A DNA stretch of 42,790 bases from Methanocaldococcus sp. (GTDB lineage: Archaea > AGJL01 > Methanococci > Methanococcales > Methanocaldococcaceae). Each line of letters starts with the position of its first letter. The stretch's first letter is position 1. The notes below the pieces were generated by a model that ran no database searches, was not told the origin of the DNA, and saw only the letters and a program-made list of their open reading frames with translations. The stretch lies in the NCBI GenBank assembly GCA_027068365.1, contig JAMOTQ010000032.1:1-42790 (forward strand), read 5' to 3'. Position numbers and translations under genes: made by a program. Below are positions 419 to 34,954 of the stretch, piece after piece.

Positions 419-1267
419 TTAGTAGATAGAAGCCCCATCATTGTTTGGTTTAGTTAAAATAACCTTTCCATACATATTTAATTTCTCTTTTACCTTCTCA
501 ACATTCTCATCTTCAACTATGGCTATATAACTTGGACCTGTTCCAGACAATCCAGCTGTTATAGCTCCTGCCTCTAAGGCATCTATTGCTATGTTTGTTG
601 GAAAGTTTAAGGCAGATGCATACAAAATCCCATTTAAAAACAATGCCTTAAAGTAATTCCCATTCATAGCTTCATTAAAGGCAATCTCAACCCAATCTTT
701 TATTAATTTCATCCTATTTACATTAACATTTTTTTCTAAATTTGGAATTAAAACTAAGACATTTAAATCCTCTTTCATCTTATCTCTTTTTAAAATCTTC
801 CTCTCTATATTGTCAGTTATTGTTATTCCTCCATAATATGAGGCAGTGGCATCATCATAAGCCCCAGTAACAGTTAATTTTTCATCAAAACTTGATTTTA
901 TGCCCAAATTTAATATTAGCTCATCATCTATCCTTTCATTTAAAGCATCAAATGTTGCCAAAACTACTGCATTAGAAGTGGCTGAACTGCTACTCAAACC
1001 TGATTTTATAGGAATTTCTGTCTTTGTTTCAACATAGGCAGAGTAATTCAACCCAAAATAATCTAATGTATTTTTAACACATCTTATTATTAAATTTGGC
1101 TTAATATTTGGATTATCTAAAACTTTTCCCTCTATCTTATTTTTTCCATCATCTATTAATTTAACTCTTGCATAAACCTTTAAATCTAAACCAAAAGCTG
1201 AACCCTTACCTGTTGCTATTGCATTAATTATTGTTCCAGAAGCTAATGCATAAGCTCTCCCTTCCAT
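419..1267 (-). CDS. aroK: Archaeal shikimate kinase, GHMP type
   Basis: This cytosolic enzyme phosphorylates shikimate with ATP in the pathway to chorismate and aromatic amino acids. Archaea use a GHMP-superfamily protein rather than the bacterial P-loop AroK. The 282-residue product has the GHMP ATP-binding motif at about 89-101 ([12 protein letters not shown]) and the third family motif near 237-246 ([10 protein letters not shown]), and its length suits the family. The ATG at 1265-1267 follows an AGAGGATGAT ribosome binding site. It lies downstream of the thermonuclease gene on the same strand with a 13-nt gap, so the two are probably co-transcribed. Homoserine kinase is the main alternative in this superfamily, but the glycine/serine motif and overall sequence match archaeal shikimate kinase (MJ1440, as I recall). 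Confidence 0.9.
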
Positions 1268-1280
1268 AAAATCATCCTCT

Positions 1281-1880
1281 TTAATTATTATGCCAATTCC
1301 ATAAACCTACTCTATCTTCCTTTGCCTCTTTCTCAACCTCTAAGAATTTATCTCTTAATTCAAAATCACTTATATAAACCCTCGCATAACCGTATTTTAA
1401 AAGTTCTTCATTGAAGTTTATCAAATTATTGCTATTATTTATAAAGATATAAGCTAAATACCTCCCGTATCTATCTTTTTTTGGAGCTTCTTTGTCAAAG
1501 GCAATAATAACTGTTTTATTTTCCAACTGCTTCTTTGCAAAGTATTTGGCTTTTATTCCCCATTCTTTTAAGTATGTTGTATTTGTTATTGGAGTGCCAT
1601 CTAATAAATAGTATTCATTAGGGTTATTTTTCTTGTATGTTTCTGGTGTATCAACGCCTAATAACCTAATTTTCCATAATTTTCCATTAACATTTACATA
1701 GACGGTATCTCCATCAACAACTTTAACAACCTTTCCATAATAGTGTTCATGGGTATTTACAAATGAATTATAATCACTACCATAATTAAAATTAGTTTTA
1801 TCATTTAAACAACCACATAAAGACATTGAAGCCAATACTACCAACATCAAGAATATAAAATATTTTTTTAATGTTTTCAT
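1281..1880 (-). CDS. Secreted thermonuclease-like lipoprotein (SNase domain)
   Basis: Staphylococcal-nuclease-like phosphodiesterase predicted to act outside the membrane. Residues 1-24 form a signal peptide with a positive N-terminus, a hydrophobic core and a lipobox-like LCGC (21-24), so a lipid-anchored protein is likely. The SNase domain spans about 48-196. Residues corresponding to the S. aureus nuclease active site are present: Arg72 ([11 protein letters not shown]), Asp77, Glu80 and Arg140 (DRYGRYLAY). The ATG follows a GGGAAA site. Possible roles are nucleic-acid scavenging or degradation of extracellular DNA; the sequence does not decide between them. It appears to be a catalytically complete member rather than a Tudor-SN type. 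Confidence 0.87.
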
Positions 1881-1915
1881 AATTTCCCTTTTTTCTGATT
1901 TTTAATTAATCATTT

Positions 1916-2671
1916 TTAGAATAAGCTAAGTAATTTATAACTGGCTATAATTGATAATAAAACAATAACTCTTGTTATTTCATTTGAAGCCCCTAAAATA
2001 TCTCCATTAACCCCACCAAAATGCTTTTTAGCTATCTTAGCCATGCATAGACCAGTAATTATTGCCGTTATTATAGCAATAATAATAATTTTCCTCTCAA
2101 TCCCACTAAATATTAAAAGTAATGGAAGAGATAAAATAATTCCAATTGTTAAAAACTTTTCATCTGCCTTTTTAACGAAGTATCTTCCAGTTCCCTCAAT
2201 TAAAGGATTTCCAAAGGTTGAACAGCTCAACATTCCAAGCTTTGCACAAACCTCTACAACCAATAGATATAGGATATTAATCTCCAAAATATAAGATAAT
2301 GATATAATTGCCAATAAATTAAAAAATACTGCAAAAACTACTCCTCCACAACCAATATACCTATCTTTCATAGCCATTAATTTCTTTTTCTTATCTCCAA
2401 CAGCCATCCATCCATCTCCAAAGTCAATTAAGCCATCTATATGATGAAAGCCGTTTAAATATTCAACAAAAAATAAAATTAAAACAGCAGATAGAAGATT
2501 AGGAAACAAAAAACTAAAAATGTAGCCAATTAATAAACTAAAAATTCCAAACACATAACCAATTAAAATAATCAAGTAAAAATGGTTGGCAATGTTTTCA
2601 AAATCAAAATCTTCCACATATATTGGAATCCTCGTAAAAAATGATAACAGTGCTTTAAATTCCTTAAACAT
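1916..2671 (-). CDS. cobS: Adenosylcobinamide-GDP ribazoletransferase (cobalamin synthase)
   Basis: Integral membrane enzyme that joins adenosylcobinamide-GDP to alpha-ribazole, the last assembly step of cobamides. A methanogen needs corrinoids for the methyl-H4MPT:coenzyme M methyltransferase. The 251-residue protein has several hydrophobic segments and the CobS signature around 91-107 ([17 protein letters not shown]), an acidic, presumably Mg-binding motif, followed by [10 protein letters not shown]. Length is typical. The ATG follows GGGGAT. It lies between the HAD phosphatase and thermonuclease genes on the same strand with short gaps, but neither neighbour is an obvious cobamide gene. 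Confidence 0.93.
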
Positions 2672-2697
2672 TGGTTATCCCCAAAAAATTTTATATT

Positions 2698-3384
2698 TTA
2701 GTTCTTTTTTAATTCTTTAACAATATCTACAAGCTCTTGAAGAGAGTTTATTGTATAATCACTATATCCATCATCTTCCATATATTTATATTTTCCCTTT
2801 AATATCCTAACTGTTATCATTCCCAATTCCTTGGCTGGTTTTATGTCCTTATCAACCCTATCCCCAACATAAATAGTTTCTTCTGCCTTTAAGCCCATTC
2901 TCTTTAATCCATATTTAAAAAACTCTAAGTGAGGTTTTCCTAAACCAAATTCTTCCGAGGTTATGACATCATCAAAGAATGGATGAATTCCCAACCTAAT
3001 AAGTTTTTCCCATTGTTTTATGGTCAATCCATCAGTTACAACTCCCAACTTTAACCCCATTGCTTTAAGCTCCATCAATGTCTTTATTGTATGTGGGTAA
3101 GGTCTTAATAAAGCAACTTTAACATTGTGGTAGGTTATAATTCCAGTTGTTATTATTTTAGGGTCATATTTTCCTAAAACTGCCTTAACTAAATCATCAA
3201 AGTGCTTTCCATAATTTGAACCTTTGTCCTTAATAATTTTGTTTAATATGTCCATTGCCTCATCAAAATTTATATTTAAACCGGCATCTATCATTGATTT
3301 AACTGCCTCTCTTCTTGCAATCTCAACGAATTCTGATGAGTTATATAAAGTATCGTCTAAATCAAATAAAATTCCCTTTATCAT
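2698..3384 (-). CDS. HAD-superfamily phosphatase (glyceraldehyde-3-phosphate phosphatase-like)
   Basis: Haloacid-dehalogenase-fold hydrolase of 228 residues. Motif I is FDLDDTLY (7-14), with nucleophile Asp8 and acid/base Asp10. Motif II is VVTDG near 115, the motif III lysine lies in GLGKPHLEFF, and motif IV is VGDRVDKDI. A helical cap follows motif I. I recall the M. jannaschii counterpart (MJ1437) being reported active on glyceraldehyde 3-phosphate in vitro; the physiological substrate remains uncertain. The ATG follows GGGAAT. Its gap to cobS is 26 nt, so an operon is plausible, but no direct role in cobamide synthesis is evident. Confidence 0.85.
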   Translation of the reverse strand: MIKGILFDLDDTLYNSSEFVEIARREAVKSMIDAGLNINFDEAMDILNKIIKDKGSNYGKHFDDLVKAVLGKYDPKIITTGIITYHNVKVALLRPYPHTIKTLMELKAMGLKLGVVTDGLTIKQWEKLIRLGIHPFFDDVITSEEFGLGKPHLEFFKYGLKRMGLKAEETIYVGDRVDKDIKPAKELGMITVRILKGKYKYMEDDGYSDYTINSLQELVDIVKELKKN

Positions 3385-5588: not shown

Positions 5589-6077
5589 TTATCCCTTAAA
5601 GTTCCAGAGCTTATCCCCTACATAGTGTATATTTTCAACTGCTTTCCCCTTATCTTCCTCTTTCATCTCTTTTCCACTCATTAATGCAATTCCAATACAT
5701 ATTGGTTTTTTGTGGTTTTCATCTACAACAAAAACAACATCTCCCTCATTAATGTTTTCATCCGCATCTACAATTCCCGGAGCCATTACATCAGCTCCCT
5801 TTATTAAGAATTTTATTGCCCCCATATCAACAACAACTAAATTTTTATCTGGGAGTTTTTTCAACAACAATCTTAATGTTGGAATTACTTTATCATCTTT
5901 TTTAAATGCAATTGGCTCTTTATCAACCAATATTATTTCAAAATCGTCAGCTATGGCTATTTCTACATTACCCTTTTTTGGAATTATTTCATCAACATCT
6001 CCAAAAAATTCCTTTAATTCATTTTTTATTTTTTTAATGTCCTTTTTGCTTAAAAAATATCTCCTTCTTATCTCCAA
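5589..6077 (-). CDS. MCT-1-like PUA-domain RNA-binding protein
   Basis: A 162-residue protein with an N-terminal pre-PUA domain (1-75, RRRYFLSKKDIKKIKNEL) and a C-terminal PUA domain (about 79-156, VVVDMGAIKFLIKGADVMAP then GIVDADENINEGDVV). This architecture matches archaeal relatives of eukaryotic MCTS1, which acts in ribosome recycling and re-initiation, so an RNA- or ribosome-associated role is likely. Translation starts at TTG (6075-6077) after a GGTGG site; no in-frame ATG would preserve the conserved N-terminus. An archaeosine-transglycosylase PUA fragment is the alternative, but the catalytic domain is absent. Confidence 0.85.
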   Translation of the reverse strand: MEIRRRYFLSKKDIKKIKNELKEFFGDVDEIIPKKGNVEIAIADDFEIILVDKEPIAFKKDDKVIPTLRLLLKKLPDKNLVVVDMGAIKFLIKGADVMAPGIVDADENINEGDVVFVVDENHKKPICIGIALMSGKEMKEEDKGKAVENIHYVGDKLWNFKG

Positions 6078-6134
6078 ATTACCACCTTCGTAATAAGTTT
6101 AAAAACATAAATTAACATTTTTATATTTTCCTCC

Positions 6135-6518
6135 TTATTTTAACTCGTTTATAATCTCTTTAACTTTTCTTAAAAACTCCTCAGCATATACGATACATAT
6201 TTCTGCTTTTTTCTTATCAATATCAAATGTAGAACCATAATCTGCTTCCTGTCTTAAATCAAATACATATTTGTAATATTGTGCATAATTATTATCTAAT
6301 ATCCCAGTTTTTATAAATTCTAAACCAAGTATTTTTAAAATTCCTCTATGTTTTTTAGGATTTAGCCCTTTACTTAACAGTAATGCTTTTGCAGAATGAA
6401 ACATTGAGTAGTAAGCTCTCGATATCGCTCCGATATAATGTTCATTTTCAAATAAAATTTTTGCTTCATCTAAACTCTCTTCTGCCAATAATATTTGAAG
6501 GTCTATTTCTTTATCCAA
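6135..6518 (-). CDS. HEPN-domain protein, likely toxin of a HEPN/MNT pair
   Basis: An all-alpha 127-residue protein of the HEPN family (PF05168 type). The SRAYYSMFHSAKALL segment carries Arg34 and His41 (R-x6-H), and DLRQEADYG is typical of the C-terminal half. HEPN proteins of such pairs are often RNases whose activity is blocked by the partner nucleotidyltransferase, which can AMPylate them. Translation begins at TTG (6516-6518) after GGGGGT, and the start overlaps the end of the MNT gene by 8 nt, so the two are coupled. A non-catalytic HEPN cannot be excluded, because the R-x6-H is not in the place typical of HepT. Confidence 0.85.
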   Translation of the reverse strand: MDKEIDLQILLAEESLDEAKILFENEHYIGAISRAYYSMFHSAKALLLSKGLNPKKHRGILKILGLEFIKTGILDNNYAQYYKYVFDLRQEADYGSTFDIDKKKAEICIVYAEEFLRKVKEIINELK

Positions 6519-6819
6519 TTATAACCCCCTCTTTTAGGACATTTTTATAGAATGAAAAATTTTTATATCTTTTAAACTCCTCCTCAGTTTTTACTATCGC
6601 AGATATAACTTCCCCATATTTTAGGAGTATTTCAGCACTTAAAAAAGAAACATCCCTCTGCGGAACATTCCCAATAATTAAAATGTCTATATCACTCTCT
6701 TCATTATAATCCCCTCTTGCATAACTACCAAATAATATAATCTTCTTAATCTTATCTTTATACTTATCTTTCAATGCTTTAACAAACTCATTTAAAGCCA
6801 ATTTTTTTGTATCTTCCAT
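6511..6819 (-). CDS. MNT-type minimal nucleotidyltransferase, likely antitoxin
   Basis: A 102-residue polymerase-beta-fold nucleotidyltransferase with GSYARGD (31-37) and the metal-binding pair in SDIDILI (Asp43, Asp45). The usual third acidic residue is not seen: the strand reads GEVISAIVKTEEEF, as in many small archaeal MNTs. The ATG at 6817-6819 is chosen because GGGGATG lies just before it; the open frame extends upstream to 6831, overlapping nothing conserved. It follows the cofH stop directly and overlaps the HEPN gene, so it probably forms a two-gene toxin-antitoxin unit inserted in a housekeeping operon. Confidence 0.87.
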   Translation of the reverse strand: MEDTKKLALNEFVKALKDKYKDKIKKIILFGSYARGDYNEESDIDILIIGNVPQRDVSFLSAEILLKYGEVISAIVKTEEEFKRYKNFSFYKNVLKEGVIIG

Positions 6820-6831
6820 AAACATCCCCAT

Positions 6832-7911
6832 TTAATCCAAAATTTTATACAAAGTAGTTCTCTCCTTAGGAATTAATCCAACTCTCTTAATCATATCTCT
6901 AATTTCTTCAACGCTCATATAAACCCCATGCTCAGCCCCTGCACTTCTTGATATATTTTCCTCTATCAAAGTGCCTCCAACATCATTAGCCCCACATCTC
7001 AAAGCAACTTGAACCATCTTTTTCCCTAATTTAACCCAAGATGCCTGGATATTTTTTATCAACCCTCTAAATATTATCCTACTAACAGCAAAAACCTTCA
7101 AATCTTCAATACCAGTAGCTCCTGCTCTTGCTCTCCCCTCTCTATAAATTGGGGCAAATCTATGCATAAATGAAAGAGGGACAAATTCAGTAAAGCCGTT
7201 TGTCTCTTGCTGAATCTCTTTGATTATGAAGAGATGATTTACCCAGTGTTTGTAGTTATCAATATGTCCATACATCATAGTTGCAGTTGTAGGAATGCCT
7301 AATTTATGAGCTTCTTTAATTATATAAATCCATTCTTTTGTTTTTATTTTGTTTGGGCATAACTCAGCTCTAATTTCATCATCTAAAATCTCCGCCGCAG
7401 TTCCTGGCATGCTGTTTAAACCACTTTCCTTTAATATTTTCAACGCCTCTTTAATATCTAAGCCGGCATTTTCAGCTCCAAAATAAACCTCCATTGGTGA
7501 AAATGCGTGTATATGTATATCTCCATAAGGTTTTGTTGCCTCATGAACTGCCTTTAAAATCTCCGCCTGATAATAAGTGTCTATCTTTGGATGTAATCCA
7601 CCTTGAATACAAACCTCGGTGCAACCAAATTTTTTTGCCTCCACAGCCCTTTTAGCAATCTCATCTATATCCAAAAAATAAGCATGTTTGTCATTTTCAT
7701 TTACCCTAAAAGCACAAAATTTGCAGTTTCCAATGCAAATGTTTGTGAAGTTTATGTTTCTATTTACAACATAAGTAACTATATCTCCAACCTCCTCCTT
7801 CCTCAAACTGTCAGCAAATTTAAACAACTCAAATATATTTTCATTATCTTCAAATAACTCTAACGCCTCTTTTTTTGATATTTCCCTTTCTTTAAATTTT
7901 TCCAAGTCCAT
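6832..7911 (-). CDS. cofH: FO synthase subunit 2 (CofH, radical SAM)
   Basis: CofH transfers the 4-hydroxybenzyl part of tyrosine to 5-amino-6-ribitylaminouracil. With CofG it builds the deazaflavin FO, precursor of coenzyme F420. The 359-residue protein has the radical-SAM cluster motif C59-x3-C63-x2-C66 (CIGNCKFC) and HIHAFSPMEV and GTAAEILDDE blocks typical of CofH/MqnC-like enzymes. Length is normal. The ATG follows GTGAAATT, 4 nt after the hisI stop, so hisI and cofH are co-transcribed. CofG is not in the window. F420 is the main hydride carrier for mch-pathway partners such as mtd and mer. Confidence 0.95.
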   Translation of the reverse strand: MDLEKFKEREISKKEALELFEDNENIFELFKFADSLRKEEVGDIVTYVVNRNINFTNICIGNCKFCAFRVNENDKHAYFLDIDEIAKRAVEAKKFGCTEVCIQGGLHPKIDTYYQAEILKAVHEATKPYGDIHIHAFSPMEVYFGAENAGLDIKEALKILKESGLNSMPGTAAEILDDEIRAELCPNKIKTKEWIYIIKEAHKLGIPTTATMMYGHIDNYKHWVNHLFIIKEIQQETNGFTEFVPLSFMHRFAPIYREGRARAGATGIEDLKVFAVSRIIFRGLIKNIQASWVKLGKKMVQVALRCGANDVGGTLIEENISRSAGAEHGVYMSVEEIRDMIKRVGLIPKERTTLYKILD

Positions 7912-16046: not shown

Positions 16047-17681
16047 ATGGACAAACCATGGGTAGAGAAGTATAGACCAAAAACATTGGACGAGATTGTT
16101 GGACAGGATGAAATCGTAAAAAGATTAAAGAAATACGTTGAAAAAAAAAGCATGCCACATTTATTATTTAGCGGACCTCCTGGGGTTGGAAAGTGCTTAA
16201 CAGGGGATACAAAGGTTATTATAAACGGAGAGATTAAAAAAATTGGAGAGGTTGTTGAAGAAATTAGTAATGGGAAGTTTGGAGCAACTTTAACTAACAA
16301 CTTAAAGGTTTTAGGAATTGATGAATACGGAAAAATCAGAGAGTTTAATGTGCAGTATGTTTATAAGGATAAAACCAACACTTTGATAAAAATAAAAACC
16401 AAAATGGGTAGAGAGTTAAAGGTAACTACCTACCACCCTTTATTAATAAACAACAAAAATGGAGAAATAAAATGGGAGAAGGCAGAGAATTTAAAGGTTG
16501 GGGATAAGTTAGCAGTTCCATGCAATATTGTTTATAAAAAAAATGGCTTTATCTTTAAAGATAAAAAATTGAAAGGAAAAGGTCTAATCATAAATGAAAA
16601 TATATTAAACTATTTATCAGAAAAATTAAATTTAGATGCTGATTTAAGTAAGAACGTTTTAAAAGAAATTCTCTACAAATTAGAAACAATGGATAACAAT
16701 ATAGATGATAAGTTAAAGGATGCAATATCATATCTTATATTTTTACATGAAAATCAATTATATTGGGATGAAATTGTTGAAATTGAGCAATTAAGTGGAG
16801 AATTCACAATCTATGATTTGCATGTTCCAAAATACTACAACTTCATTGGTGGTAATTTACCAACTATACTGCACAATACAACTGCCGCTTTATGTTTAGC
16901 AAGGGATTTATTTGGAGAAAATTGGAGAGACAACTTTTTAGAACTTAATGCGTCAGATGAAAGAGGGATAGACGTTATTAGGACAAAAGTAAAAGAATTT
17001 GCAAGAACTAAGCCAATTGGAGATGTTCCATTTAAAATTATATTCTTAGATGAGAGTGATGCATTAACAGCAGATGCACAAAACGCTTTAAGAAGAACAA
17101 TGGAGAAATATTCAGATGTAGCTCGTTTTATTCTTAGTTGCAATTACCCAAGCAAGATTATCCCTCCAATTCAATCAAGATGTGCAATATTTAGGTTTTC
17201 ACCATTAAAGAAGGAAGATATAGCTAAAAAGCTAAAAGAAATTGCTGAGAAAGAAGGTTTAAAATTAACTGAAAGTGGGTTGGATGCAATAATTTATGTT
17301 TCAGAGGGAGATATGAGGAAGGCAATAAATGTCTTGCAAACAGCAGCAGCGTTAAGTGATGTTATAGATGATGAGATTGTTTATAAGGTCTCATCAAGGG
17401 CAAGACCAGAGGAAGTTAAAAAGATGATGCAATTAGCTTTAAATGGAAAGTTTATTGAAGCGAGAGATTTATTATACAAGTTAATGGTTGAATGGGGAAT
17501 GAGTGGGGAGGATATATTAAACCAGATGTTTAGGGAGATAAACAACTTGGATATAGATGAGAGAAAGAAGGTTGAGTTAGCAGATGCTATTGGTGAAACT
17601 GATTTCAGAATAGTTGAAGGGGCTAATGAACGAATTCAATTGAGTGCGTTATTAGCAAAAATGGCTTTAATGGGAAAGTAA
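16047..17681 (+). CDS. rfcS: Replication factor C small subunit, interrupted by an intein
   Basis: RfcS is the AAA+ clamp-loader subunit that, with RfcL, loads PCNA onto primed DNA. The precursor has 544 residues; removing the 228-residue intein (50-277) leaves 316, normal for the family. Host motifs are Walker A GPPGVGK (43-49) continuing with TT after the intein, Walker B IIFLDESDAL, sensor 1 LSCNYPSKI and SRC motif IQSRCAIFRF. The ATG follows GGTGATAAT. It lies between two F430 genes on the same strand. The M. jannaschii homologue, as I recall, carries three inteins; only one site is occupied here. Confidence 0.96.
   Translation: MDKPWVEKYRPKTLDEIVGQDEIVKRLKKYVEKKSMPHLLFSGPPGVGKCLTGDTKVIINGEIKKIGEVVEEISNGKFGATLTNNLKVLGIDEYGKIREFNVQYVYKDKTNTLIKIKTKMGRELKVTTYHPLLINNKNGEIKWEKAENLKVGDKLAVPCNIVYKKNGFIFKDKKLKGKGLIINENILNYLSEKLNLDADLSKNVLKEILYKLETMDNNIDDKLKDAISYLIFLHENQLYWDEIVEIEQLSGEFTIYDLHVPKYYNFIGGNLPTILHNTTAALCLARDLFGENWRDNFLELNASDERGIDVIRTKVKEFARTKPIGDVPFKIIFLDESDALTADAQNALRRTMEKYSDVARFILSCNYPSKIIPPIQSRCAIFRFSPLKKEDIAKKLKEIAEKEGLKLTESGLDAIIYVSEGDMRKAINVLQTAAALSDVIDDEIVYKVSSRARPEEVKKMMQLALNGKFIEARDLLYKLMVEWGMSGEDILNQMFREINNLDIDERKKVELADAIGETDFRIVEGANERIQLSALLAKMALMGK
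16194..16877 (+). other. RfcS mini-intein (228 residues) in the Walker A motif
   Basis: Protein-splicing element starting at Cys50 (CLTGDTKVIINGEIKKI, block A) and ending at Asn277 (TILHN, block G), followed by Thr as +1 nucleophile. Block B is LKVTTYHPLLI with the TxxH motif, and block F is YDLHVPKYYNFIGG. All splicing residues are canonical, so it should be active. The middle region (about 90 residues from NIVYKKNG to IVEIEQ) has no LAGLIDADG motif, so the homing endonuclease appears lost and the element is probably immobile. Insertion directly after the P-loop lysine means unspliced protein cannot bind ATP properly. Confidence 0.93.
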
Positions 17682-28277: not shown

Positions 28278-29837
28278 TCATTTATACAACTTCTCAGCAT
28301 ACTCCTTAGCCATTCTTTCAGCATCAAAGTATTCAACAATATGATTAACGCAGTTGCAAGCTTTCATCCACCAATCCTCAGTGTCATACATGTCAGCAAC
28401 CTCTTCCAGCAAATTATAGATACAATTAGCCACATAGGCATCATCATCCCTAACCCCATCACCAATCGTAAAGCTGTCATCTGGATACATCTTAGCCCAC
28501 TCAACATGCCATCCGTCTAAGGTGCTCATGTGTATAGACGCGTTCATAGAGGCAGTCATTCCAGAGGTTCCAGATGCCTCATGGTTTAATTTTGGTGTAT
28601 TAAGCCAAATATCTGAACCCTGCTTTAACATCTTACTAAGCTTTAACTCATAGCCAGTTAATATGGTAGCTCCTTTCATATCCCTTGTTTTTGATACAAT
28701 CCAGTTAAAGGTTGCTATCATGTTGTGGTCATTAGGATGTGGTTTTCCAGCCCAAATAACTTGTATTTTTTTCTTTTTTAATAATTCAAGTAATCTCATC
28801 TCATCATGTAGCAATATGTAAGGTCTTTTATAGGCAGTAAATCTCCTTGCCCAAACAACAGTTAATCTATCCTTTTTAAAAATCTTTCCAGTTTGGTCTG
28901 CCACTTCTTCAAACAAAATTTCTTTTAATTCCATTTTCCTCTCTCTTAGCATATCTATATCGTATTTTTTTGCCGCCTCTCTAATAATAGGGTCTTGCCA
29001 ATAATATTTATCTTGGGCATTGGTTATTGCCACTATCTCACATCTATCCTTAACCCAACTCCACATTCTATCGCAAACTTCTTTATGCTTTTTAGAGACA
29101 GCATTAGCTCTCTTACAGGTTCTTAATGCACAAACGGTATAGTTAAAAGGATTCCCTCCTAATCTTTCAGCTAATTTTACATCAACATTTCCAAAGAATC
29201 CCATGGATTTTAATAAATTAATGTCTTGGGTTTCATTTCCTTCTGGTAGTGGTGTGTGGGTTGTGAAAACAACGTGCTCCCTTGTATATTCAAGCCCATA
29301 ATCTTCAATTAATTTAAAAACTAATGGTAAAGGATGGGGTTCATTCATGTGGAAAAGTTTTACATTCTCACACTCTTTTATAACCTTATAGCCCCCAATA
29401 CCTAAAACCATCTCTTGGGCTATGTGGAGGATATTATTGGCATCATACAATTTGTGGGTTATAGTTCTTGAAAAATCATCGTTCTCTGGAATGTCTGTGG
29501 TTAAAAAGTAGATTGGGCATGTTCCAAAAACATCCTCCTCTAATTTATAAGCTTTAACCCATACAGTGTTGTTATTTATTTTAACTGGAACTTTTAATTT
29601 AATATCCTCCAAGAAATCATAATATTTCCTTATATACTCAACCTTCATATATCCTTCTCTATCTCTCAATTGGTCATAATACCCATAACTCCATAATATT
29701 GAAACCCCCACAAGTGGCTGGTTTAATCTCTTAGCGGCTCTAAAATGCGAGCCAGCTAAAAACCCCAATCCCCCAGCATAAGTTTTTAAAGGTTGATGAA
29801 TTGCAAACTCCATACAGAAATAGGCAGTTGGCTTCAT
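28278..29837 (-). CDS. GT35 glycogen-phosphorylase-like protein lacking the PLP lysine
   Basis: A 519-residue member of the short alpha-glucan phosphorylase group. Family blocks are YFCMEFAIHQPLKTYAGGLG (6-25), LFHMNEPHPLPLVFKLIEDY, FTTHTPLPEGNE and WARRFTAYKRPYIL. At the PLP-lysine site the consensus EASGTxxMK reads EASGTSGMT: residue 428 is threonine (codon 28554-28556). Phosphorolysis normally needs PLP on that lysine, so this protein may be a non-PLP glycosyltransferase, a regulator, or a phosphorylase using PLP differently. I avoid the name glgP for that reason. The ATG follows GAGGGAGAT. It is divergent from polC. Confidence 0.85.
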   Translation of the reverse strand: MKPTAYFCMEFAIHQPLKTYAGGLGFLAGSHFRAAKRLNQPLVGVSILWSYGYYDQLRDREGYMKVEYIRKYYDFLEDIKLKVPVKINNNTVWVKAYKLEEDVFGTCPIYFLTTDIPENDDFSRTITHKLYDANNILHIAQEMVLGIGGYKVIKECENVKLFHMNEPHPLPLVFKLIEDYGLEYTREHVVFTTHTPLPEGNETQDINLLKSMGFFGNVDVKLAERLGGNPFNYTVCALRTCKRANAVSKKHKEVCDRMWSWVKDRCEIVAITNAQDKYYWQDPIIREAAKKYDIDMLRERKMELKEILFEEVADQTGKIFKKDRLTVVWARRFTAYKRPYILLHDEMRLLELLKKKKIQVIWAGKPHPNDHNMIATFNWIVSKTRDMKGATILTGYELKLSKMLKQGSDIWLNTPKLNHEASGTSGMTASMNASIHMSTLDGWHVEWAKMYPDDSFTIGDGVRDDDAYVANCIYNLLEEVADMYDTEDWWMKACNCVNHIVEYFDAERMAKEYAEKLYK

Positions 29838-30094
29838 TTATCTCCCTCAACTAATAATTATTTTATTTTTTAATTTTATTACTTAATTTGATAATTATAT
29901 AATTACGTCGTAATTATATATTTATTTTCTATTTATATTTAAAATTTTTAAATTTTTAATGTTGTTATTTATAAATATTTGTATATATGGATTATTTTTA
30001 AGCAAATGTATTATATTCCCCATATCTAAATTAGAATAACAAAAACTATATGATTCATTTAAATTAAATATCAAAAATTACAAATGTGATTATT
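29838..30094. promoter_or_regulatory. Divergent promoter region between the phosphorylase-like gene and polC
   Basis: This 257-nt region is extremely AT-rich. A 25-bp palindrome at 29896-29920 (arms of 12 bp, one central base; core ATTACGTCGTAAT) starts 59 nt upstream of the phosphorylase-like ATG, in operator position. A TATA-like tract lies at 29967-29980 on the polC side. GTGAT just before 30095 is the polC ribosome binding site. No ORF is present. Confidence 0.5.
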
Positions 30095-33000
30095 ATGGTT
30101 CATGTTGCATGCTCTGAAAACATGAAAAAGTATTTTGAAAATATCGTTAATGAAGTTAAAAAAATTTACAAAATAGCTGAGGAATGTAGGAAAAAAGGTT
30201 TCGACCCAACTGATGAAGTTGAAATCCCGTTAGCTGCTGATATGGCTGATAGAGTTGAGGGATTGGTTGGACCGAAAGGTGTGGCTGAGAGAATTAGAGA
30301 ATTGGTTAAAGAGTTGGGTAAAGAGCCAGCGGCATTAGAAATAGCCAAAGAAATCGTTGAAGGAAAATTTGGAAACTTTGATAAAGAAAAAAAGGCAGAA
30401 CAGGCAGTTAGAACTGCACTGGCAGTTTTAACGGAGGGAATTGTTGCCGCTCCATTGGAAGGAATTGCAGATGTCAAAATCAAAAAAAATCCAGATGGAA
30501 CTGAATATTTAGCCATCTACTATGCTGGACCAATAAGAAGTGCTGGGGGAACAGCTCAGGCATTATCTGTTTTAGTTGGGGACTTTGTTAGAAAGGCGAT
30601 GGGTTTAGATAGGTATAAACCAACAGAAGACGAGATTGAGAGATACGTTGAAGAAGTTGAGCTTTACCAATCAGAAGTTGGTAGCTTCCAATACAACCCA
30701 ACAGCTGATGAGATTAGAACAGCCATAAGGAATATACCAATTGAGATTACTGGAGAAGCAACGGATGACGTTGAGGTTTCTGGGCATAGAGATTTACCAA
30801 GAGTTGAAACAAACCAACTGAGGGGAGGGGCTTTATTAGTTTTGGTTGAAGGGGTTTTGTTAAAAGCTCCAAAAATATTGAGGCATGTTGATAAATTGGG
30901 AATAGAGGGATGGGATTGGCTTAAAGATTTAATGAGTAAGAAAGAAGAAAAAGAGGAAGAAAAAGAGGAGGTAGAGGAAGAAGAAATAGATGAAGAGGAA
31001 GAGGAGATAAGTGGATACTGGAGGGATGTTAAGATAGAAGCAAACAAAAAGTTTATAAGTGAAGTTATTGCTGGAAGGCCTGTTTTTGCCCATCCTTCAA
31101 AGGTTGGTGGATTTAGGTTGAGATATGGAAGGAGTAGAAATACTGGATTTGCCACACAAGGATTTCATCCTGCCCTGATGTATTTGGTAGATGAATTTAT
31201 GGCTGTTGGAACTCAGCTAAAAACTGAAAGACCGGGAAAAGCCACCTGTGTTGTTCCAGTTGATAGCATTGAGCCGCCAATTGTTAAGTTAAAAAATGGG
31301 GATGTTATTAGGGTTGATACAATAGATAAAGCCGTAGAGGTTAGAAATAGAGTTGAGGAGATTTTATTCTTGGGGGATGTTTTAGTTAATTATGGGGATT
31401 TTTTAGAGAACAACCACCCATTACTGCCAAGTTGTTGGTGTGAGGAGTGGTATGAGAAGATATTGATAGCCAACAATATAGAGTATGATAAAGAATTTAT
31501 AAAGAATCCAAAGCCAGAAGAAGCTGTTAAGTTTGCTTTAAAAACAAAAACTCCATTGCATCCAAGATTTACATATCACTGGCATGATGTTAGCAAGGAG
31601 GATATAATCTTATTAAGAAATTGGTTGTTAAAAGGGAAAGAGGATAATTTTGAAGGTAAAAAGGTTTGGATTGTTGATTTAGAGGTAGAGGATGATAAAA
31701 AAGCAAAAAGGATTTTGGAGTTGATTGGTTGCTGTCACTTAGTTAGAAATAAAAAGGTTATAATTGAGGAGTATTATCCTTTACTCTACTCATTGGGCTT
31801 TGATGTTGAAAATAAAAAGGATTTAGTGGATAATATAGATGAAATTTTAAAATCAGCCAAAAATAGCATGCATCTTATAAATTTATTGGCTCCATTTGAG
31901 ATTAGGAGAAATGCTTATGTTTATGTTGGAGCAAGGATGGGAAGACCCGAGAAAGCCGCTCCAAGAAAGATGAAGCCCCCAGTTAATGGTTTGTTTCCAA
32001 TAGGTAACGCTGGAGGGCAAGTGAGATTGATAAACAAGGCAGTTGAGGAAAACAACACGGATGATATTGATGTCTCTTACACATACTGCCCAAAATGTGG
32101 AAAAATCTCTTTATATAGGGTCTGTCCATTCTGCGGAACTAAGGTAGAGTTGGATAAATTTGGAAGGATTAAAGCTCCTTTAAAGGATTATTGGTATTCT
32201 GCCTTGAAAAGATTGGGTATAAACAAGCCAGGGGATGTTAAGTGTATTAAGGGGATGACATCTAAGCAGAAGATTGTTGAGCCATTGGAAAAGGCAATAT
32301 TAAGGGCTATGAATGAGGTTTATGTCTTTAAAGATGGAACTACAAGGTTTGACTGCACTGATGTGCCAGTAACTCACTTTAAGCCAAATGAGATAAATGT
32401 TAGTGTTGAAAAATTGAGAGAGCTTGGTTATGATAAAGACATTTATGGTAATGAGTTAGTTGATGGAGAGCAAGTAGTTGAGTTAAAACCACAAGATGTC
32501 ATAATCCCAGAGAGTTGTGCGGAGTATTTTGTTAGAGTAGCTAATTTTATAGATGATTTGTTAGAGAAGTTTTATAAAATGGATAGATTTTACAATGTAA
32601 AAAAGAAGGAGGATTTAATTGGGCATTTAGTTATAGGAATGGCTCCTCATACCTCAGCAGGAATGGTTGGGAGGATTATTGGATATACAAAGGCAAATGT
32701 TGGTTATGCTCATCCATATTTCCATGCCGCAAAGAGAAGAAACTGCTTCCCTGCAAATACAAGGATTTTGGTAAATATTGATGGAGATGTTAAGAGAATT
32801 ACATTAAAGGAACTGTATGAGTTGTTTGATGAAAGTGATGAGGTATTTGAGAAGGATGCATTCATTAGAAGAAAGCCAAAGAGAAACGTTAAAGTCTATT
32901 CCTTCGATACAGAAAATAAAAAAGTAGTTTTAACTGACATTGAGGAAGTTATAAAGTTACAATCTCCAAATCATCTTATAAAAATAACATTAGATGGAAA

Positions 33001-34954
33001 TAGAGAGTTTATTACAACCTATGACCATCCAGTTATGGTTTATGAGAACGGCAAATTTGTTAAAAAATTGGCAATGGATGTTAAAGAAGGGGACTTAATG
33101 CTAATTCCAAAGGTTGATTTTGAAGAGGAGGATATAGAGGAGTTTGACTTATTAAAAGAATTTTCAAGAGAGGAGTTTAAAGATTTATGGAGTATTTTGA
33201 GAGTTAGAGGTATTGGCAATTGGATTAAAGAAAATATTGATAAGAAATTAATTAGAGAGCTGAAATTGAATGATTATTTAAGATATGATACAATACCATT
33301 GAATAAACTTCTCATCTTATTGGAAAAATCAAATTTAACAGTTGATGATGTTCCAAAAAACTGCTACATTGGTGTTAGAAGAGATAAGGTCAATATTAAA
33401 AGAATTGTTAAGGTTGAGCCGTTATTAAAGTTGATTGGCTACTACTTATCTGAGGGATATGCAAGGGAGTCAAAAAGTGTTTATCAGATAAATTTCTCAA
33501 ATTCAGAGGAAGAAATTAGGGAGACCATTAAAAAAGCTATAAAAGAGGCATTTGGAGATATAAACATATATGAAAATGAAGAGGAAGGAAAATTAACATT
33601 ATCATCAAAAATTGTTTATTTATTCTTCACAAGAGTTTTAAAGATTGGAAAAAAGGCAAAATCAAAGAGAGTTCCAAGCTTTATCTTTAAGTTGCCAAGG
33701 GAAAAAATTAAATTAATGCTTTCTGCCTACTTTGATGGTGATGGAACTGCTTTAATAACTACTCCAAGAGTAGCTGTTTATAGTGCAAATAAAGAGTTGT
33801 TGGAGGATATTGATTTATTGCTAAATAGATTTGGTATTAAAACTTATTGGACAGTTGATAAAAATGCAAATGAGAGAGAGGGGAGCTGTGTAAAGAAATA
33901 TTATGAAAATAAAGATAAAGAAGCTCCAAAATCAGTTGTTTATGCTTTAAATATTACAGGAAAGTATTATGACATCTTCTTCAAAAAAATAGGATTTTTC
34001 TTAAAAAGAAAGCAGAAGGTTTATGATTTGCATAAAAATAAGATAAGAAAAGATGATTTAACAGAATATGATTTTGGTTGGATTGTGGGGGTTAGAAAAA
34101 CTGAGGTAGTAAAGTCAGAGGATGAATTTATCTATTCACTAACTGCTAAGAAGTATCACAATGTAATCATAAACAAGAATATTCAAACATATCAATGTGA
34201 TGGAGATGAGGATTCTTTCTTCCTACTCTTAGATGCGTTCCTAAACTTCTCCAAGAAATTCCTGCCAGACAAAAGAGGAGGGCAAATGGATGCCCCATTA
34301 GTTTTAACAACTATCTTAGACCCAAAGGAAGTTGATGGGGAAGTCCATAACATGGATACGATGTGGAGTTATCCATTAGAATTTTATGAAAAAACCTTAG
34401 AGATGCCTTCACCGAAAGAAGTTAAGGAGTTTATGGAGACGGTTGAGGATAGATTAGGAAAGCCAGAGCAGTATGAGGGTATTGGCTACACTCATGAAAC
34501 TTCAAGGATTGATTTGGGACCGAGGGTTTGTGCCTATAAAACCCTTGGCTCAATGTTGGAAAAAACAACTGCCCAACTATCAGTTGCTAAGAAGATTAGG
34601 GCTACTGATGAGAGAGATGTTGCTGAGAAGGTTATACAGTCCCACTTTATCCCTGACTTAATTGGGAATTTAAGGGCTTTTTCAAGGCAGGCGGTTAGAT
34701 GTAAGTGTGGGGCTAAGTTTAGAAGAGTGCCATTAAAAGGAAAGTGTCCAAAATGTGGCTCTAACTTAATATTAACTGTCTCAAAGGGAGCTGTTGAGAA
34801 GTATATGGATGTTGCTGAGAAGATGGCTGAGGAATACGATGTAAATAATTATATAAAACAACGACTAAAAATTATTAGGGAGGGGATAAATTCAATTTTT
34901 GAAAATGAAAAGAGCAAGCAGGTTAAATTAAGTGATTTCTTTAAAATGAGTTAA
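30095..34954 (+). CDS. polC: DNA polymerase D large subunit DP2 with an intein
   Basis: Catalytic subunit of the archaeal replicative polymerase PolD. The precursor has 1619 residues from ATG 30095, preferred because GTGAT at 30086-30090 then acts as the ribosome binding site; the frame also has a GTG at 30086. Removing the 484-residue intein leaves 1135, the normal DP2 size. Visible features are the N-terminal region ([20 protein letters not shown]), an acidic linker (about 284-304, 30942-31012), zinc-binding CPKCGK and CPFCGT (from 32089), the catalytic motif N-CDGDED split by the intein, and a C-terminal zinc finger (CKCGAKF, CPKCGSN). The small subunit DP1 is not in the window. Confidence 0.96.
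32744..34195 (+). mobile_element. PolC intein (484 residues) with LAGLIDADG homing endonuclease
   Basis: In-frame element starting at Cys884 ([14 protein letters not shown], block A) inside the DP2 catalytic motif, between Asn and CDGDED. Block B is [11 protein letters not shown]. Two LAGLIDADG motifs are visible: [10 protein letters not shown] (about 33433-33465) and [10 protein letters not shown] (about 33718-33750), so a homing endonuclease is probably functional. Block F includes [10 protein letters not shown]. The C-terminus is NIQTYQ followed by Cys: the last residue is Gln instead of Asn, and the penultimate is Tyr instead of His. I recall that the Pyrococcus PolII intein at this site also ends in Gln and still splices; the Tyr is an extra departure. 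Confidence 0.93.

Follow-up and report, generated by a model that had tools for sequence, protein, structure and literature searches.

A branch of GT35 alpha-glucan phosphorylase-like proteins with threonine or serine in place of the PLP lysine, in Methanococcales and several bacterial groups

Glycogen phosphorylases are considered to require covalent PLP; according to the speculation of one review, a nucleotide gave way to PLP in a GT-B ancestor (PMC11046441). Every GT35 enzyme characterised so far is an alpha-glucan phosphorylase (PMC8950772), and GT35 phosphorylases are described as using covalent PLP, with K646 as the PLP lysine of E. coli MalP (PMC11046441); both statements count against a departure from this chemistry in the clade described here. 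The window, a stretch of 42,790 nucleotides of Methanocaldococcus sp. DNA, contains a GT35 gene whose PLP signature reads EASGTSGMT, with the following features:

28278-29837, minus strand: GT35 alpha-glucan phosphorylase-like ORF of the Thr/Ser-type clade, 519 aa (family profiles, AlphaFold2, Foldseek); its translation contains ...NTPKLNHEASGTSGMTASMNASIHMSTLDGWHVE...
29763-29774, minus strand: GGLG glycine loop, invariant in 84/84 clade members
29256-29258, minus strand: His194, invariant (84/84), aligned to catalytic His377 of rabbit phosphorylase
29010-29024, minus strand: TNAQD, with Asn273 kept and A274-Q275 clade-specific in the alignment; Lys-type proteins have TNGVH/TNGIH
28827-28853, minus strand: phosphate-binding block W329-A-R331-R332-F-x-x-Y-K337, with R331/R332/K337 invariant and W329 clade-specific
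28647-28649, minus strand: clade-specific Glu397, where the helix carrying Lys405 begins (rabbit R649)
28635-28637, minus strand: Ser401, clade-specific, one helical turn ahead of Lys405 (rabbit A653)
28623-28625, minus strand: Lys405 (AAG), clade-specific and invariant, aligned to MalP I623 and rabbit I657
28536-28580, minus strand: PLP-signature block EASGTSGMTASMNAS, with Thr for the Schiff-base Lys (translation, homologue alignment)
28554-28556, minus strand: Thr428, codon ACT, in the column of E. coli MalP K646 and rabbit K680

The window protein matched TIGR02094 with 361 bits (cut-off 191.7) and PF00343 with 53 bits (E = 2.5e-14, cut-off 27). Its AlphaFold2 model (pLDDT 95.1, pTM 0.93) had the Segatella copri glycogen phosphorylase as top Foldseek match (PDB 9l6i, TMq 0.89), and all of the 50 best PDB fold matches were GT35 phosphorylases, which indicates a GT-B phosphorylase fold. 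The short- and long-form phosphorylases of TIGR02094, of which the S. copri enzyme is an example, have this fold in common with the window protein, which scores above the family cut-off, and share with it the glycine loop, His, Asn, Arg/Arg/Lys, Tyr, and the EASGTSG block, whereas the window protein (about 25-34% identity) lacks the PLP lysine, has TNAQ where they have TNG[VI]H, and carries Glu397/Ser401/Lys405, Trp329, and Gly395. The catalytic core of the classical phosphorylases (TIGR02093: rabbit GP, E. coli MalP) could be aligned end to end, but these enzymes measure about 800 aa, and the window protein is without the PLP lysine and several of their insertions. GT5 glycogen synthase (GlgA) has the GT-B fold in common and showed remote homology across most of the window protein; however, the latter stayed below the GlgA cut-off with no match to the GlgA (GT5) model listed, bacterial clade members reached 31-42 bits where the threshold is 328, and GT5 was no nearer to the window protein than to Lys-type GT35. 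GT4 trehalose phosphorylase, which needs no PLP, has another family and substrate and is likened to the clade by description, not by sequence. It offers a precedent in being a retaining phosphorylase within a GT family that uses a front-side displacement mechanism (PMC8950772).

The sequence-only reading had claimed that Thr occupies the position of the PLP lysine, and this was borne out: ACT at 28554-28556 encodes the residue that aligns with MalP K646. Since ACT is two base changes away from a Lys codon (AAA/AAG), a lone read error cannot account for Thr428, and sequencing error or decay was discarded as an explanation on this ground and in view of the clade-wide Thr/Ser, the 61-97% identity within the order, and the open frames. 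The further claim that the other GT35 blocks are conserved, arguing against general decay, also held up. The glycine loop, His194, Asn273, Arg331, Arg332, Lys337, Tyr396, and Glu420-Ser425, and with them the catalytic and phosphate-binding residues expected of GT35, were invariant in 84/84 clade members, while the Lys expected at the end of EASGTxxMK was Thr or Ser in every one of these. From His194 onwards, I take the rabbit equivalents to be His377, Asn484, Lys568, Arg569, Lys574, Tyr648, and Glu672-Gly677, with K680 for Thr428; the rabbit numbering is anchored through the alignment to E. coli MalP.

Among the 84 distinct clade members, which were gathered by a regular expression blind to other residues at column 428, this column held 72 Thr and 12 Ser, compared with Lys in 28/28 sequences outside the clade. 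The blindness was checked by listing every close locus among the Methanococcales homologues and in the genome scan described below, and each had Thr or Ser. At least 8 independent Thr/Ser exchanges are needed on the tree, the Ser codons were of both the AGY and the TCN type, and none of Ala, Pro, Ile, Asn, and Lys, all single-base neighbours of Thr, occurred at column 428 in the clade; together, this pattern suggests that a hydroxyl at this column is probably under selection.

The clade differed from the 28 Lys-type sequences at further positions, including Ser30, Gln275, Trp329, Gly395, Glu397, Ser401, and Lys405. Glu397, Ser401, and Lys405 are spaced four residues apart on a helix that AlphaFold2 modelled at 398-407, correspond to rabbit 649/653/657 in an alignment that is gap-free through Thr428, and were present in 6/6 sequences outside the set that defined these positions. 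The Lys405 column was K in 84/84 clade members and V/I/L/E in the Lys type. Rabbit residues 648-653, A653 among them, line the PLP pocket, and Lys405 would then be pocket-facing, judging from its alignment to the A653/I657 stretch. Lys405 is thus a candidate for either a relocated cofactor lysine or a filler of the vacated pocket. PLP bound through a neighbouring lysine had been named beforehand as the case that would refute a functional loss, and Lys405, absent from Lys-type relatives, is a concrete candidate for such a residue. The changes to K405 and T428 map to a single branch, and their coupling was seen once. Other clade-invariant lysines were set aside as replacement anchors: K301 and K305 align with positions at which E. 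coli MalP has lysine too, and K71 belongs to the N-terminal domain, away from the pocket blocks of the alignment.

Exactly one GT35 copy was found in 30/36 Methanococcales genomes, and alignment of the archaeal column gave Thr in 29/30 and Ser in 1/30 of these homologues; in each of these 30 genomes the Thr/Ser-type gene was the sole GT35. A second, Lys-containing GT35 was looked for in the window's genome and none was found (assembly 89% complete). Peptide patterns drawn from elsewhere in the protein, with the Thr428 motif left out, were run against the genomes of 84,980 species (one genome per species, with other archaeal phyla outside the sample) and yielded 80 loci. The close loci comprised one from Methanococcales (L061) and 52 from bacteria and had Thr or Ser in 53/53 cases, while Lys was kept in all remaining loci (identity of about 32% or less). 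The 52 bacterial loci, with a best-segment identity of 43-51% to the window protein, came from Bacteroidota, Campylobacterota, and Desulfurellales, plus one cyanobacterial MAG and a MAG labelled Thalassovita. Of 248 sampled Bacteroidota genomes, 25 contained matches to a DNA pattern for EASGTSGM[T/S], and the reversed-pattern control gave none. The methanogen setting suggested earlier therefore stands for Methanococcales but not as a methanogen peculiarity, as the clade extends to Bacteroidota, Campylobacterota/Desulfurellales, and others.

The Thr/Ser sequences formed one side of a branch (SH-aLRT 100; stem length 1.23 changes per column). When classical phosphorylases were added as outgroup, the clade stayed intact beside Lys-bearing TIGR02094 groups, the deepest branch order being unsettled. 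Given this placement, Lys would most simply be the ancestral state, lost once, and an ancestral pre-PLP origin of the clade was discarded on the same grouping, subject to that unsettled order. The Thr/Ser clade is a large, ancient GT35 branch shared by methanogenic archaea and several groups of bacteria; a literature search found no published description of it. Clade genes on Runella and Pontibacter plasmids are annotated plainly as glgP. On the Runella plasmid, a pyridoxamine 5'-phosphate oxidase family gene (L210:5633-6073, plus strand) lies ~30 bases past the Thr-type gene, possibly by chance. A DUF1622 gene precedes GT35 on both the Pontibacter plasmid (L211:3356-3703, Thr-type) and a Methylophaga plasmid (L215:1-77, short Lys-type), hinting at a common mobile cassette.

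The proposed link to glycogen metabolism gained support from gene content. In Methanococcales, the gene was present in exactly the 30 genomes with a GH57 amylase, and the same 6 lacked both (Fisher p 5e-7, a value that ignores shared ancestry, several of the 6 negative genomes being incomplete); full-length GlgA was also missing from most of these 6. Three Methanococcus-like genomes (G018, G019, G020) kept the Thr-type gene and GH57, and in these no full GT5 glycogen synthase was found, only a GT4-like 410-aa protein. The clade gene was the only GT35-like gene in 19/20 bacterial genomes that were searched whole. In Campylobacterota/Desulfurellales it sits in operons with varying sets of GlgA, branching enzyme, GH57 4-alpha-glucanotransferase, GalT-like uridylyltransferase, ROK sugar kinase, phosphofructokinase, and a PGM-like phosphomutase, the company expected of a maltodextrin phosphorylase. 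In Bacteroidota, the clade gene was usually without conserved glycogen neighbours. Thirteen of these genomes (G039, G041-G049, G052, G054, G055) encode a stand-alone ~270-300 aa protein with only the GT5 N-terminal half, in some of them the sole GT5 match. One Campylobacterales operon (L064) holds both a Lys-type GT35 with DUF3417 (1023-3122), the source of the single AAG in the codon count for column 428, and a Ser-type GT35 (6001-7587, both plus strand), which suggests that the two types are not fully interchangeable; phosphoglucomutase and probable glucose-6-phosphate isomerase genes lie between them.

The primary paper on the glycogen enzymes of M. maripaludis, by Yu et al. in 1994, reportedly described phosphorylase activity in extracts. 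The glycogen phosphorylase step of this species has been assigned to MMP1220 in a review (PMC4902934). Every Methanococcus-like GT35 found here was of the Thr type, and I infer that M. maripaludis would carry the Thr form as well, since all seven genomes of its probable genus have Thr. The expectation in the sequence-only reading that loss of the Schiff-base lysine would end ordinary phosphorolysis is, next to this assignment, a conjecture. Elsewhere in the window, intein-like insertions were noted by eye in the ORFs for a replication factor C small subunit (16047-17681, plus strand) and a DNA polymerase II large subunit (30086-34954, plus strand), for which the letters CLTGDTKV...YQC were quoted.

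Taken as a whole, I favour, at roughly even odds (a probability of about 0.5), the reading in which the monophyletic Thr/Ser GT35 branch still transfers glucosyl units of alpha-1,4-glucans, most likely as a phosphorylase, and has had its cofactor site rebuilt. The invariant catalytic and phosphate-site residues, the phosphorylase fold, the sole GT35 status, the linkage to glycogen genes, and the published assignment of the M. maripaludis step to MMP1220 argue for an active glucan enzyme, while the clade-wide loss of Lys, the constrained hydroxyl, and the coordinated E397/S401/K405 changes on the facing helix point to a rebuilt cofactor site. Such an enzyme would serve in the breakdown of glycogen or maltodextrin, presumably cleaving the glucan with inorganic phosphate, and the retained R331/R332/K337/T424 site would still hold phosphate groups. 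The anchoring of PLP may have been taken over by Lys405, or the enzyme may dispense with a PLP imine, the former PLP pocket then being occupied by Lys405 and Thr428; I rate these two sub-cases about equal. A literature search found no biochemically characterised clade member.

The alternative that survives best, though doubtful, is a nucleotide-sugar glucosyltransferase, in which the nucleotide of UDP-, ADP-, or GDP-glucose would reoccupy the pocket as in GT5/GT3 glycogen synthases, enzymes with E-x7-E or another residue where phosphorylases have E-x7-K. GT35 and the glycogen synthases share GT-B homology, the clade has Gly395-Tyr396 and Ser401 as many GT5 sequences do, and the suggestion, made in a review, of a proto-GT35 enzyme in which PLP took over from a nucleoside monophosphate is in keeping with this (PMC11046441). 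Single-sequence GT5 HMM medians were also higher for the T-type than for the K-type (20.8 vs 3.7 bits), but this signal was absent from the profile-profile comparison, where both were equally close to GT5 (84.1 and 83.3), and closeness to GT5 was dropped as evidence. R331, which is on the PLP-phosphate side in phosphorylases, is invariant, GlgA is already present in several operons, and the 50 best fold matches are phosphorylases without exception; support for a nucleotide-sugar donor is weaker than for a phosphorylase.

Glucosyl transfer to a non-phosphate acceptor, meaning hydrolysis to free glucose or disproportionation between glucans, is distinctly doubtful. Free glucose would require a sugar kinase, and a gene for a ROK sugar kinase immediately precedes the clade gene in L067, L092, and L109 and is nearby in Sulfuricurvum loci; however, the kinase is equally explained by glucose from the neighbouring GH57 4-alpha-glucanotransferase, as with E. 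coli MalP/MalQ/Glk, and the phosphate-binding Arg/Arg/Lys is retained. An otherwise ordinary phosphorylase that holds PLP by ordinary non-covalent contacts, with no lysine, would agree with the invariant PLP phosphate site (R331, T424, S425) and with GT35 chemistry being ascribed to the PLP phosphate rather than the imine (PMC6411801), but it is improbable, as the ring-side wall (F26, S30, Q275, W329, E397, S401, K405) changed in concert, which is more than simple imine loss would need. A non-catalytic or regulatory glucan-binding paralogue, acting as a sensor or a partner of GlgA or GH57, is unlikely: loss of the canonical cofactor lysine is, as a matter of general knowledge, the classic sign of a pseudoenzyme, but some loss among the catalytic and phosphate-site residues would then be expected where 84/84 members show none, and the clade gene is usually the sole GT35 of its genome.

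Within the favoured reading of a working phosphorylase with a rebuilt cofactor site, the boldest version is a natural, widespread glycogen phosphorylase, descended from a Lys-bearing ancestor, that either needs no PLP at all or fills the old PLP pocket with a nucleotide or a cofactor bound to Lys405; I put this forward tentatively, with the odds leaning against it. I know of no earlier departure of a GT35 enzyme from its cofactor, and a PLP-free (or nucleotide- or Lys405-cofactor) phosphorylase, if true, would be the first. The PLP-free or nucleotide version, if true, would in effect turn back the proposed exchange of a nucleotide for PLP. Because members of the clade automatically receive glgP or alpha-glucan phosphorylase names, metabolic models may assign them the wrong cofactor or reaction. 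The nucleotide-to-PLP idea becomes directly testable in a clade that has lost the lysine yet retains the catalytic residues, and whose genomes usually encode no other phosphorylase-like protein.
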